Assembly: GCA_030682795.1 (NCBI GenBank)
Contig: JAUXNJ010000001.1
Span: 1 to 64,000 of the forward strand
Source of the DNA: Sphingobacteriaceae bacterium
Lineage (GTDB): Bacteria > Bacteroidota > Bacteroidia > UBA7662
Direction: 5' to 3'
DNA length: 64,000 bases
The notes under the pieces are model-generated. The model ran no database searches and was not told where the DNA came from. It was given only the letters and a program-made list of their open reading frames with translations. Made by a program: the position numbers and the translations under genes. Positions 16,842 through 41,894 of this stretch are shown here, one piece after another. Each line of letters starts with the position of its first letter. Position 1 is the first letter of the stretch.

Positions 16842-17483
16842 ATGCGCGACAGCACGCCCAAAGAAAAAGTCCTTAAAAAAATCCGCAAAGCGCTCATCCA
16901 CAAGAGCAGCCCGAAGAGCATGTCGGTTGACTTTGAAAAGCCGGTATTTCCGCCGATTGACAACGACCTGGCCATGGCTTTTGCGGAGCGTTTGCTCGAC
17001 ATCAGTGGGTCGTTTGCCTACTGCGAAAACATGCTCGATTTCGCCGAAAACCTGGTGTTGCTCGTGCAGCAGCAAAAAAGTCAGCATATTTTCTGCTTCG
17101 AACCGGGGATTCAAAAGCTGTTTAACGAGGTGGAGTTTCCCTATCTCAACAATCCGCAGCAGCTGGGGCAAGTAGAAATTGGGGTAACTGGTTGCGAGGC
17201 TTTGGTAGCAGCTACCGGCAGCGTTTTTGTGAGTTCGGCGCAGCAAATGGGTCGCAGCATGACCGTTTTTCCGCCCGTGCATGTGGTAGTGGCCTTCACT
17301 TCGCAGCTGGTGCCGGACCTGAAGAGCGCCTTTCAGCTCATCAAAACCAAATACAACGGCAAGTTGCCAAGCATGCTCAGCGCCATAACAGGGCCGAGCC
17401 GCACGGCCGACATCGAAAAAACCTTGGTGTTAGGGGCACACGGTCCTAAAGAGTTATACGTATTTTTGGTGCAAGACAACTAA
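16842..17483 (+). CDS. LUD domain-containing protein (LutC/YkgG-like)
   Basis: A 213-residue cytoplasmic protein of the LUD family. LutC is part of the LutABC lactate oxidase, but stand-alone LUD proteins next to ftsH in Bacteroidota have no defined role. Family features are FAENLVLLVQQQKSQ, the conserved GVTGCEALVAATGSVFVSSAQ, PPVHVVVAFTSQLVPDL and the terminal ITGPSRTADIEKTLVLGAHGPKELYVFL. No LutA or LutB gene is nearby, so lactate use is not implied. The stop overlaps the lpxH start (TAATG), which indicates translational coupling with lipid A synthesis. Confidence 0.92.
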   Translation: MRDSTPKEKVLKKIRKALIHKSSPKSMSVDFEKPVFPPIDNDLAMAFAERLLDISGSFAYCENMLDFAENLVLLVQQQKSQHIFCFEPGIQKLFNEVEFPYLNNPQQLGQVEIGVTGCEALVAATGSVFVSSAQQMGRSMTVFPPVHVVVAFTSQLVPDLKSAFQLIKTKYNGKLPSMLSAITGPSRTADIEKTLVLGAHGPKELYVFLVQDN

Positions 17484-18256
17484 TGGGCAGCGGCAAGCAT
17501 ACGTACTTCCTCAGTGACTTCCACCTCGGCATTCCTAACCGGATGGGCAGTTTGGAGCGCGAGCGCCGCATCATTGCTTTTTTAAACGAAATCGCCCCCC
17601 AGGCCGAGGCCATTTATTTGATGGGCGATGTGTTTGATTTTTGGTTTGAGTACAAGCATGTGGTGCCCAAGTACCATGTGCGTTTGTTGGGCAAACTGGC
17701 CGAGCTCACCGATGCTGGCATAGCTGTGCACTTTTTTATGGGCAACCACGATATGTGGACCTTCGGTTACCTCAGCGAAGAAATTGGTTTGCAGGTGCAT
17801 AGCGACACCTATGTGACCGAAATCAACGGCAAGCGCTTCTTTTTAGGGCATGGCGATGGCAAAGGTCCGGGCGACAAAGGCTTCAAACGCCTCAAAAAGG
17901 TGTTCAGGCACCCGCTCAATCAGTGGCTTTTTGGTCGTTTGCACCCCAATTTGGCCTTTGGCATGGCGCAACATTTTAGCTACAAAAGTAGGGCTGCAGG
18001 CGACGATGAATCGCAGTTTTTGAAAGAAAACGAGTGGTTGTACCAATATTGCAAGCGCAAATTAGCAAGCACGCACTACGACTACTTTGTATTTGGTCAC
18101 CGCCACCTGCCCATTTGCACCGCAGTGGGGACCAACAGTTTGTATATCAATTTAGGCGATTGGATCGTTTATAATACTTATGCCGTTTTTGATGGGGAAA
18201 ATCTCGATTTACGCACTTATCCTACTCACGAGCCTGCTGGTTTCGGTCGGGGCTAA
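17483..18256 (+). CDS. lpxH: UDP-2,3-diacylglucosamine diphosphatase (LpxH-type)
   Basis: This enzyme hydrolyses UDP-2,3-diacylglucosamine to lipid X and UMP, the fourth step of lipid A synthesis, at the inner face of the cytoplasmic membrane. The 257-residue calcineurin-like phosphoesterase has the full metal-binding set: SDFHLG (D12, H14), MGDVFDFWFEY (D49), MGNHDMW near 85, GHGDG near 118 and FGHRHLP near 202. The start codon shares its A with the LUD stop. The last 65-77 bases are shared in another frame with the signal-peptide region of the next gene; the lpxH tail there (RTYPTHEPAGFGRG) is not part of the conserved core. Confidence 0.93.
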   Translation: MGSGKHTYFLSDFHLGIPNRMGSLERERRIIAFLNEIAPQAEAIYLMGDVFDFWFEYKHVVPKYHVRLLGKLAELTDAGIAVHFFMGNHDMWTFGYLSEEIGLQVHSDTYVTEINGKRFFLGHGDGKGPGDKGFKRLKKVFRHPLNQWLFGRLHPNLAFGMAQHFSYKSRAAGDDESQFLKENEWLYQYCKRKLASTHYDYFVFGHRHLPICTAVGTNSLYINLGDWIVYNTYAVFDGENLDLRTYPTHEPAGFGRG

Positions 18257-19016
18257 GGCTGGCGGCGACAGTCTGCATTTTCAGCACAGCTATGCGCTCG
18301 AGCAGCCCATCCAATACTTTACCGTAGATAATTTAGGGGCCTACTACCTCATCACCCGCCGCAATGAACTGGTAAAATACGACGAAAAGGGCCAGTGGGT
18401 AGGCAACCACCGTGAGCAGGTGCTGGGCCAATTGCGGCATGTAGATGTATTTAACCCTTTGCAGCTGCTGCTTTTTTATCCTGAGGTATCGGTGCTGCTG
18501 CAGCTCGATAACATGCTCTACCAAACCAATCGCTTTGAGGTGGCCGGCTTGCAACTCAGCAACCAATCTCAGGTTTGTCGCTCGTTCGACAACAACTTTT
18601 GGATGTACGACGAGCGGAGTTTCAGGCTGCGGAAGCTGGCTTTTGACATGCGCACGGTGCTGGAGGGCGAGTGGTTGCAGAACGAAATCAGCGGGCAGCT
18701 GGCACCCACCTACATGCTGGAGCACAACGAGCGGGTGTATTTGGCCGACCCCAAGTTGGGGATGTTGGTGTTCGACCTATATGGCCGCTACCTCAAAACC
18801 ATCCCTCAAAAAGGCATTGAGCGCATGGATTTTTGGGGCGAGCACGCCTATTTTGCGCGGGATGGGCAGGTTTGGCGACTGCATTTGCGCGAAGGCACGG
18901 CCGAGGCTTTAAACATCGGCAAACACAAAGCCAAAATGGTGCGCGTAAACCAGCGAGGTTTGTATGTGTGGGCCGGCAACGAGCTGTTGCAATTCGCGCA
19001 CCCTGCGAAGCGCTAA
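18192..19016 (+). CDS. Secreted propeller-like protein of unknown function
   Basis: A 274-residue exported protein (ATG 18192; ATG 18180 adds four residues). A signal peptide runs to about AKA-GG. The mature part has repeated short strand units of propeller type: IQYFTVDNLGAYYLI, ELVKYDEKGQWVG, ERVYLADPKLGMLVFDLYGRYLKTIP and GLYVWAGNELLQF. I recognise it as an uncharacterised Bacteroidota family (the pattern of DNLG near the N-terminus, NPLQLLLFYPE, and D-P-K-x-G-M-L-V-F-D), but no function is known to me. The signal peptide is encoded almost wholly inside the overlap with lpxH. There is no catalytic motif. The gap to prfA is 17 bp. Confidence 0.82.
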   Translation: MGKISIYALILLTSLLVSVGAKAGGDSLHFQHSYALEQPIQYFTVDNLGAYYLITRRNELVKYDEKGQWVGNHREQVLGQLRHVDVFNPLQLLLFYPEVSVLLQLDNMLYQTNRFEVAGLQLSNQSQVCRSFDNNFWMYDERSFRLRKLAFDMRTVLEGEWLQNEISGQLAPTYMLEHNERVYLADPKLGMLVFDLYGRYLKTIPQKGIERMDFWGEHAYFARDGQVWRLHLREGTAEALNIGKHKAKMVRVNQRGLYVWAGNELLQFAHPAKR

Positions 19017-40139: not shown

Positions 40140-40718
40140 ATGAAAATTGCCCTTCGATTAAGTTTATTTGCCCTCATTCCGGTGTTGCTCAGCAGCTGCG
40201 GTTACAACTCCATGGTGAGTAAAGATGAAGCCGTGAGCTCGCAGTGGGCCAATGTAGAAACGGCTTACCAGCGCCGGGCCGACCTCATCCCCAACCTCGT
40301 GAGCACCGTAAAAGGCTATGCCGATTTTGAGCAAGAAACCCTCACCCAGGTAGTAGAAGCCCGTGCCAAAGCCACCAGCATGAATGTGGATGCCAGCAAA
40401 TTGGACGCTTCCACCATCGAAAAATTCCAAGCCAACCAGGCCCAATTGAGCGGTGCTTTGTCGCGCTTGATGGTGGTGGTTGAAAAATACCCCGACCTCA
40501 AAGCCAACCAAAACTTCCTCGAACTGCAATCACAGCTCGAAGGCACCGAAAACCGCATCAGCGTGGAGCGCCGCAGGTTTAACGAAATGGTGCAAGACTA
40601 CAATACTTACATCCGTAAATTCCCCAATAACCTCATCGCTGGCATGTTTAGCTTTGAGCAAAGGGGCTATTTTAAGTCTGACGAAGGCAGCGACAAGGCC
40701 CCAAAAGTTGAGTTTTGA
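40140..40718 (+). CDS. lemA: LemA family lipoprotein
   Basis: A 192-residue LemA-family protein with a lipoprotein signal (LLSSC, Cys20). The family helix bundle is clear: WANVETAYQRRADLIPNLVSTVKGYADFEQETL, AQLSGALSRLMVVVEKYPDLKANQNFLELQSQLEGTENRI (in parts), RRRFNEMVQDYN and FPNNLIAGMFSF. LemA proteins are membrane-linked and of uncertain function; they often occur beside TPM-domain genes, as here. A possible promoter (TATTTTAG, 40113-40120) has one mismatch. The stop overlaps the TTG start of the next gene. Confidence 0.95.
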   Translation: MKIALRLSLFALIPVLLSSCGYNSMVSKDEAVSSQWANVETAYQRRADLIPNLVSTVKGYADFEQETLTQVVEARAKATSMNVDASKLDASTIEKFQANQAQLSGALSRLMVVVEKYPDLKANQNFLELQSQLEGTENRISVERRRFNEMVQDYNTYIRKFPNNLIAGMFSFEQRGYFKSDEGSDKAPKVEF

Positions 40719-41158
40719 GCGAGTCGGCTAAAAAGTTACTCGACGCGGCAGGACAAAAAACCGTACTGCAAGCCATCCAACAAGCCGAAGCTGCAAGTTC
40801 TGGCGAAGTGCGGGTACACCTCGAAGATTATTCGCGTGGGGATGCCTTAGCCCGTGCGGCCTTTTTATTCGGCAAGCTCGGCATGCGCAATACCGTGGCC
40901 CGCAATGGCGTACTGCTGTACATTGCTGTAAAAGACCATCAGGTGGCCATTTATGGGGATGAAGGCATAGATGTCGCCGTGGGCAAGGATTTTTGGGAAG
41001 CCGAAATCGCCCTCATGACCCAGCACTTTAAACAAGGCGACTATGCCGGCGGCATCAGCAAGGCACTTGAGCAAGTAGGTGAAAAGCTCCGGGAATTTTT
41101 CCCGCACCAGGGCGATGACGACCAAAATGAATTGTCGGATGAGATCACTTTTGGTTAA
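40715..41158 (+). CDS. TPM domain protein, small cytoplasmic form
   Basis: A 147-residue TPM-domain (TLP18.3/Psb32/MOLO-1) protein with no signal peptide. Domain features are ASSGEVRVHLED, a middle RNGVLLYIAVKDHQVAIYGDEGI and the HFKQGDYAGGISKALEQVG end; the acidic C-terminus follows (PHQGDDDQNE). The start must be TTG at 40715, because no ATG occurs before the conserved domain; it overlaps the lemA stop as TTGA. This is a tight coupling with lemA. Function within LemA/TPM clusters is not established. Confidence 0.88.
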   Translation: MSESAKKLLDAAGQKTVLQAIQQAEAASSGEVRVHLEDYSRGDALARAAFLFGKLGMRNTVARNGVLLYIAVKDHQVAIYGDEGIDVAVGKDFWEAEIALMTQHFKQGDYAGGISKALEQVGEKLREFFPHQGDDDQNELSDEITFG

Positions 41159-41894
41159 AATCAGTCTGCTTTTGCTCTTGGTGCTGCCTCTTGGCGCCCA
41201 AGACCTGCCCCAACCCATGAAGCCGGTGCGCTTGGTAAACGATTTTGCCCAGGTGCTCAACCGCATGGAGCTCAACAAGCTCGAAACCATGCTGGTGAGC
41301 TACAACGACAGCACTTCTACCCAAATCACCATCGTTACCGTGCAAAGTTTGGGCGGATACGAAATTGCCGACTACGCCAACAAGCTGTACGAAGCTTGGG
41401 GCATAGGCCAAAAAAGCAAAAACAACGGCTTGCTCATCTTGCTTTCGATGGAAGAGCGGGCAGTGCGCATGGAAGTGGGTTATGGCCTCGAAGACCGCCT
41501 CACCGATGCCCTTTCGCGGCGCATCATTGAGCGGGACATGGTGCCAAATTTCCGCTCGGGCGACTACGCTGGCGGTTTATACGCGGCCAGCAAATCGGTG
41601 ATTCAGGTGCTCGAAGGCGCCTACACAGCTGATGCCAAAGGCAAAGGCGAAAAGCAGGTACCTGGTTCCTTGATCATCATACTCATCGTGGTCATCCTCA
41701 TCATCATTGTGAACTCCAAAAATGGCGGTGGTCAAAGCTTCAGCGGCAAAGGCCGCGCTGGTTACCAACCTCCTTTCTTCTTCCCAATGGGTGGTGGCGG
41801 AGGCTTCGGTGGCGGCTTTGGCGGAGGTGGCGGCGGTTTTGGTGGCTTCGGCGGCGGCATGTCGGGCGGTGGCGGCGCGAGCGGGCGCTGGTGA
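41139..41894 (+). CDS. TPM domain protein, exported, with C-terminal membrane segment and Gly-rich tail
   Basis: A 251-residue exported protein. From ATG 41139 the signal peptide runs to about PLGAQ. The TPM domain at about 30-160 shows VNDFAQVLNRMELNKLE, STSTQITIVTVQSLGGYEI, NNGLLILLSMEERAVRMEVGYG (in parts) and FRSGDYAGGLYAASKSV. A transmembrane helix at about 175-195 (LIIILIVVILIIIV) is followed by a tail of about 40 residues made almost only of Gly and Phe (GGGGGFGG repeats), ending GASGRW. This is the YgcG-like layout. It overlaps the preceding TPM gene by 20 bp. The Gly-rich tail is on the cytoplasmic side if the topology is N-out. Confidence 0.92.
   Translation: MRSLLVKISLLLLLVLPLGAQDLPQPMKPVRLVNDFAQVLNRMELNKLETMLVSYNDSTSTQITIVTVQSLGGYEIADYANKLYEAWGIGQKSKNNGLLILLSMEERAVRMEVGYGLEDRLTDALSRRIIERDMVPNFRSGDYAGGLYAASKSVIQVLEGAYTADAKGKGEKQVPGSLIIILIVVILIIIVNSKNGGGQSFSGKGRAGYQPPFFFPMGGGGGFGGGFGGGGGGFGGFGGGMSGGGGASGRW

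Follow-up and report, generated by a model that had tools for sequence, protein, structure and literature searches.

Long same-strand overlaps between genes in phase 1 are a known class (PMC3887535), the phases being named by the overlap lengths -8, -11 and -14 (PMC10666635). Cock and Whitworth (2007), cited in PMC3887535, argued that in this phase gene 1 retains its redundancy and the extension of gene 2 is free to mutate. A survey published in 2008 covered 968 overlaps of >60 bp; none of the 715 same-strand pairs was judged real, and a rule flagging overlaps of >60 bp as errors was proposed (PMC2478687). Another survey described long overlaps, conserved ones included, as not rare (PMC2174442).

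We analysed an overlap between an lpxH gene and the gene for a predicted secreted beta-propeller protein in a Sphingobacteriaceae bacterium. The window, i.e. the whole stretch of DNA that was analysed, has 64,000 nucleotides. We put the probability that the pair represents a real dual-coding overlap on the same strand at about 0.8, a figure that applies to the whole explanation, including the history, translation and export that we infer. The features are as follows.

17483-18256, forward strand: lpxH, 257 residues, UDP-2,3-diacylglucosamine diphosphatase-like metallophosphoesterase
18180-19016, forward strand: propeller gene, ORF of 278 residues, predicted secreted beta-propeller
18180-18256, forward strand: lpxH/propeller overlap, 77 nt, or 65 nt counted from the second ATG; also present in G001, G002 and G005
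18180-18182, forward strand: first candidate propeller start, an ATG formed by the lpxH codons TAT GCC (Tyr 233-Ala 234)
18192-18194, forward strand: second candidate propeller start, an ATG formed by the lpxH codons GAT GGG (Asp-Gly)
18180-18260, forward strand: predicted signal peptide, MPFLMGKISIYALILLTSLLVSVGAKA, proposed from its sequence, the model helix at residues 8-23 and a hydrophobicity test
18224-18253, forward strand: lineage-specific lpxH tail THEPAGFGRG, codons 248-257, recognized by comparison with the lpxH ends of relatives

The two genes share a strand and their frames are +1 to each other, both open over 77 nt. The overlap length of 2 mod 3 corresponds to phase 1 in the nomenclature of PMC10666635. 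The ATG at 18180 is made of bases 2-3 of TAT (Tyr 233) and base 1 of GCC (Ala 234) of lpxH. A TTG at 18189, between the two ATGs, is a third possible start that would give an overlap of 68 nt, and the next in-frame start after these is a GTG at codon 81. All four propeller-bearing genomes of the family have an ATG at the Tyr-Ala site, as against three of the four at the Asp-Gly site. Position 18180 is therefore favoured as the ancestral start, and either ATG could serve today. The sequence-only reading had placed the propeller signal peptide in the 3' end of lpxH, in another frame, with an overlap of 65-77 bases that is unusually long for the window. This description was borne out: the arrangement is conserved in relatives, the overlap measures 77 nt (ATG 18180) or 65 nt (ATG 18192), and in a crude gene call with 34 same-strand neighbour pairs in the window, no pair but lpxH/propeller overlaps by >20 nt with the most favourable start. 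Elsewhere in the window, at 40715-41894, the longest ORFs of another same-strand pair overlap by 80 nt, which nearer starts cut to 8 nt.

The lpxH product matches Pfam Metallophos as well as solved LpxH chains (best E 8.3e-17). Nine distinct solved LpxH sequences match at E <= 1e-3, three of them aligning from residue 7 to residue 247 or 249. The NCBIfam LpxH equivalog cut-offs were not reached (99.4 vs 134 bits; 88.7 vs 190.35), and thus lpxH is used here in the sense of LpxH-like, for a putative lipid A enzyme, a UDP-2,3-diacylglucosamine diphosphatase. In an alignment of 40 LpxH sequences, D49, N88, H123, H206 and H208 are invariant and D12 and H14 nearly so; we take these residues to be the metal-binding Asp, His and Asn residues of LpxH. 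The overlap starts at lpxH codon 233, within TYAVFDG. In the same alignment T232 and Y233 are nearly invariant, and the local consensus is TYAVFDGxxLELKxY. The overlapped part of lpxH had been thought to lie beyond the conserved core, which is wrong for about its first 13 codons. Judging from the alignment, roughly the first half of the overlap is the conserved end of the enzyme, and the lineage-specific part is limited to about the last ten codons. The tail reaches about 8-10 codons beyond the usual LpxH end. The AlphaFold2 model gives residues 251-257 a pLDDT of 89 on average, a value suggestive of a tail packed against the enzyme.

Neither Pfam nor NCBIfam gave a match to the propeller protein at E <= 1, and its sequence places it in no NHL or other propeller family. 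Its AlphaFold2 model has a mean pLDDT of 93, with 24 strands listed. The best Foldseek matches of this model are NHL-type propellers (best E 9.6e-12, TM 0.65), and the mature product is predicted to be an NHL-like beta-propeller. The 27 residues encoded from 18180, MPFLMGKISIYALILLTSLLVSVGAKA, have the appearance of a signal peptide, with a basic residue, a hydrophobic core and an A-x-A end, the last being presumably the cleavage site by the familiar rule; a helix is modelled at residues 8-23. As this predicted signal peptide stops four bases past the lpxH stop, the overlap covers it almost exactly. Propeller matches were found in 72 of the 100 genomes searched, the window's own included. The propeller proteins form a family without a name, often encoded next to lpxH; D50 and W141 do not vary among the 76 sequences aligned. 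An Rfam search of 17900-18600 gave no match at the gathering threshold, and thus no RNA element was found in the overlap.

In the order to which the window belongs, 8 of the 21 genomes examined have a propeller match. Within the family (f1), the overlap is present in all four propeller-bearing genomes and ranges from 53 to 77 nt. It measures 77/65 nt in the congener G001, whose propeller protein is 88% identical to that of the window, 74/62 nt in the congener G002 (60% identical) and 53 nt in G005, from another genus of the family, g4 (52% identical). In these three relatives, the same two frames are open, the start position is the same and the peptides are conserved in both frames. Between the window and G001, 3 of the 77 overlap positions differ, compared with 68/697 in the rest of lpxH (P 0.06) and 142/759 in the rest of the propeller gene (P 0.0002). 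Among lpxH codons for the same residue, synonymous changes affect 1 of 23 in the overlap and 47 of 219 before it (Fisher P 0.035), and none of 209 equal-sized segments is as low as the overlap. The comparison with G002 gave 5/18 in the overlap and 78/180 before it, which is not significant (P 0.15), with 7 of 209 equal-sized segments as low as the overlap.

In this phase, the third base of each lpxH codon is the second base of a signal-peptide codon, and NNT codons of lpxH therefore yield hydrophobic residues (NTN) in the leader. For each genome the lpxH tail was synonymously recoded 5000 times from local codon usage. In the window, 14 third-base T were found against 7.0 expected (P 0.0004), and the hydrophobic core of the shifted frame gave P 0.0008. 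For T excess and hydrophobic core, respectively, P values were 0.0008 and 0.0020 in G001, 0.035 and 0.024 in G002, and 0.0056 and 0.0032 in G005; as three of the four propeller-bearing family genomes are congeners, their P values are not independent. Both measures are also <0.05 in G053, G100 and G101, three genomes of family f36. All 11 family members tested that lack the propeller gene are >0.05 on both measures (P 0.06-0.99 for T excess, 0.086-0.91 for the core). With a joint measure, requiring an open frame and a core at least as hydrophobic, the propeller-less control G008, whose frame is open, gave P 0.043. We also tested eight further lpxH genes of the ten with the shifted frame open past the stop, omitting G018 and G077. 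Both measures are <0.05 in G034, which has a propeller gene in the shifted frame, and in G033, not known to adjoin a propeller gene; G049 is <0.05 on the hydrophobic core only and the remaining five on neither. In sum, T was found 89 times against 49.4 expected in the seven deep-overlap genomes (window, G001, G002, G005, G053, G100 and G101) and 95 times against 86.5 in the 11 propeller-less family members.

Thus, the shared DNA looks dual-coding, with both frames under coding constraint. T-ending synonymous codons of lpxH would write hydrophobic NTN residues into the leader at little or no cost to LpxH. At the Tyr-Ala site, TAT is found in 4/4 family members with the propeller gene and 0/11 without; this contrast is weak, since 24 of the 38 lpxH genes outside the family also have an ATG (TAT) there.

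Deep overlaps recur in two other families of the class. We collected 68 lpxH-propeller rows, a convenience sample in which one genome appears twice (L063/L120) and the starts of rows L002 and L003 were not taken from the automatic start picker. With L098 and L180 dropped from the count, overlaps of >=41 nt are present in 10 of the 68 rows, all of them 2 mod 3 (phase 1) and from three families. The remaining rows range from an overlap of 35 nt to a gap of about 400 nt. Row L180, with ATGs at 50 and 38 nt, could be an eleventh deep overlap. In family f36, which belongs to another order (L096, L166 and L167), 3/3 genomes have the same architecture and extended lpxH tails, with overlaps of 89 nt in G053, 65 nt in G100 and 83/71 nt in G101. 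ATGs at 14 and 8 nt could replace the deep starts in G101. The T excess gave P 0.038, 0.012 and 0.0024 in G053, G100 and G101, respectively. In family f62 (L196, L197 and L199), the start picker indicated overlaps of at least 41 nt in G112 and G131 and at least 50 nt in G147. The candidate ATGs of this group lie 41-62 nt ahead of the lpxH stop, and G112 and G131 have a further ATG at 11 nt. The hydrophobic core is significant in all three (P 0.044, 0.046 and 0.0004 in G112, G131 and G147), and the T excess only in G147 (P 0.015, versus 0.12 and 0.13 in the other two). No lpxH was found beside the propeller gene in G162, the fourth f62 genome. In f2, from the same order as the window, lpxH and the propeller gene overlap by 13 nt in the other phase, which favours separate origins of the overlaps of f1, f36 and f62 rather than shared descent.

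In 13 rows of family f13 (L212-L232), propeller genes adjoin lpxH with no ATG before the hydrophobic core. They may start at a TTG within lpxH that precedes the end of the lpxH stop codon by 11-17 nt.

The LpxH tail has its own distribution. Of the LpxH sequences read elsewhere in the class, most, though not all, terminate no more than about five residues from an LxLKxF/Y-like motif, and the LpxH of G005 (g4) has the usual length, ending in LRAYPAD followed by the stop. A tail motif, [YF]P-x5-GxGR, is present in 15/15 of the tails read, namely those of all three g1 genomes and of 12 of the 13 genomes of g2 and g3. In the 13th, G007, there was only a weak match, to another phosphoesterase-like gene. 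No propeller match was found in any of the 13 g2 and g3 genomes searched, with completeness between 77 and 99%, and prfA directly follows lpxH where this region was read. A tree was built from rpoB, rpoC, ftsH, prfA and the lpxH core, some genes being missing in some genomes. It places g4 with the outgroups f2 and f3, apart from g1+g2+g3 (support 99), and joins g2 with g3 (support 98). Before rpoB and rpoC were added, g4 was poorly placed in a smaller tree (59).

The simplest order of events that we infer has the start shifting first, the stop later and the propeller gene being lost last. The propeller start would have moved upstream into the TYAVFDG codons of lpxH on the family stem, common to g4 and g1. 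The lpxH stop would then have been lost on the g1-g3 stem, before g1 split from g2+g3, and a new tail therefore read from signal-peptide DNA. Finally, the propeller gene would have disappeared on the g2+g3 stem, with the lpxH tail retained. The sequence-only reading had proposed that either the lpxH stop was lost or the downstream gene gained its leader from lpxH. The relatives favour both, one after the other, rather than an either/or. It is also possible that the tail is older than the family split and was lost in g4 by one nonsense change, which needs two events. With the start-first order, the LpxH tail of g1-g3 would have been born from signal-peptide DNA in the other frame, would have joined the folded enzyme and would have outlived the gene of the leader. 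We propose this tentatively, at slightly less than even odds. If true, the tail is a datable case in which overprinting created the end of an enzyme and use fixed it.

The sequence-only reading had itself envisaged two ways in which the overlap might prove spurious. One was a sequencing error. On our reading, a sequencing or assembly error of this kind would be an indel near 18180-18260 that extends lpxH or shifts the propeller frame when the real genes abut. Long same-strand overlaps have indeed been attributed mostly to mispredicted starts and frameshifts (PMC2478687), but here G001, G002 and G005 keep the same open frames, start position and conserved peptides, and therefore such an error is refuted; we give it next to no chance. 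The other was a later start of the propeller protein, which would then lack a signal peptide; the overlap would not be translated in the propeller frame. In this phylum, ribosome-binding sites offer little guidance. Nevertheless, the next start codon, codon 81, is inside the conserved fold, and conservation among homologues begins before it, as D50 indicates. The hydrophobic core of the upstream frame exceeds the recoding expectation in 4/4 family genomes with the propeller gene and 0/11 tested without it. On the position of codon 81 and this core we reject a later start, which we regard as very improbable. Programmed frameshifting in the overlap, yielding a fused LpxH-propeller protein and no separate secreted one, would fit the +1 relation of the two frames and their joint opening over 77 nt. 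Nevertheless, an ATG heads the second frame in 4/4 genomes, and elsewhere many homologues stand as genes of their own, each with a leader. We deem frameshifting as improbable as a sequencing error.

Another question is why the overlap exists. Start and stop may have drifted by chance, in a neutral ratchet, and the overlap may persist only as undoing it is hard. The T excess would then be no more than the mark of purifying selection acting on the signal peptide, and overlapping itself would bring no benefit. In simulations, long phase 1 overlaps are explained without selection for them (PMC3887535), and the conserved Tyr-Ala and Asp-Gly codons readily make ATGs, as do the 24 of 38 lpxH genes outside the family at Tyr-Ala. 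The recurrence of deep overlaps in three families speaks against mere drift, but it comes from a non-random sample and is not decisive. We consider the neutral ratchet rather probable, and it is compatible with a real dual-coding overlap.

Regarding the expression of the overlapping pair, ribosomes most likely initiate at 18180 or 18192 on an mRNA on which lpxH translation is already under way, which would produce the leader, and the propeller protein would then be exported by the Sec route. Re-initiation by the ribosome that terminates lpxH seems unlikely, because lpxH ends 65-77 nt downstream of the propeller start.

The lpxH/propeller pair resembles the unidirectional long phase 1 overlaps (PMC3887535) in its common strand and its length of 2 mod 3, and we regard it as a well-supported member of that known class. 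It stands apart within the class as an overlap of >60 bp that is almost exactly a signal peptide, and in that a 5' extension followed by a 3' extension can both be placed on one family tree. It provides an example of phase 1 tolerance, as a leader needs mainly hydrophobicity, which the wobble base of the upstream gene can supply. Like the misannotations reported in PMC2478687, the genes are co-directional and overlap by >60 bp. Unlike in those cases, the overlap is retained in orthologues, and choosing another start does not bring back a normal length. With its conservation and codon evidence, and with similar pairs in two more families, it counters the >60 bp rule proposed there. Gene callers that shorten the propeller gene at its start so as to remove the overlap would lose the secretion signal. 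The overlapping orphan gene described in PMC4683798, a case of bacterial overprinting, likewise represents new coding sequence from the other frame of an existing gene; in contrast, the lpxH/propeller overlap would have added a leader and a tail to two old genes, with no new gene. We found no account of this overlap in open-licence papers on lpxH and gene overlaps. Three aspects seem new to us: the stepwise history, the overlap of a whole leader with visible wobble tuning, and a tail that seemingly outlived its source.
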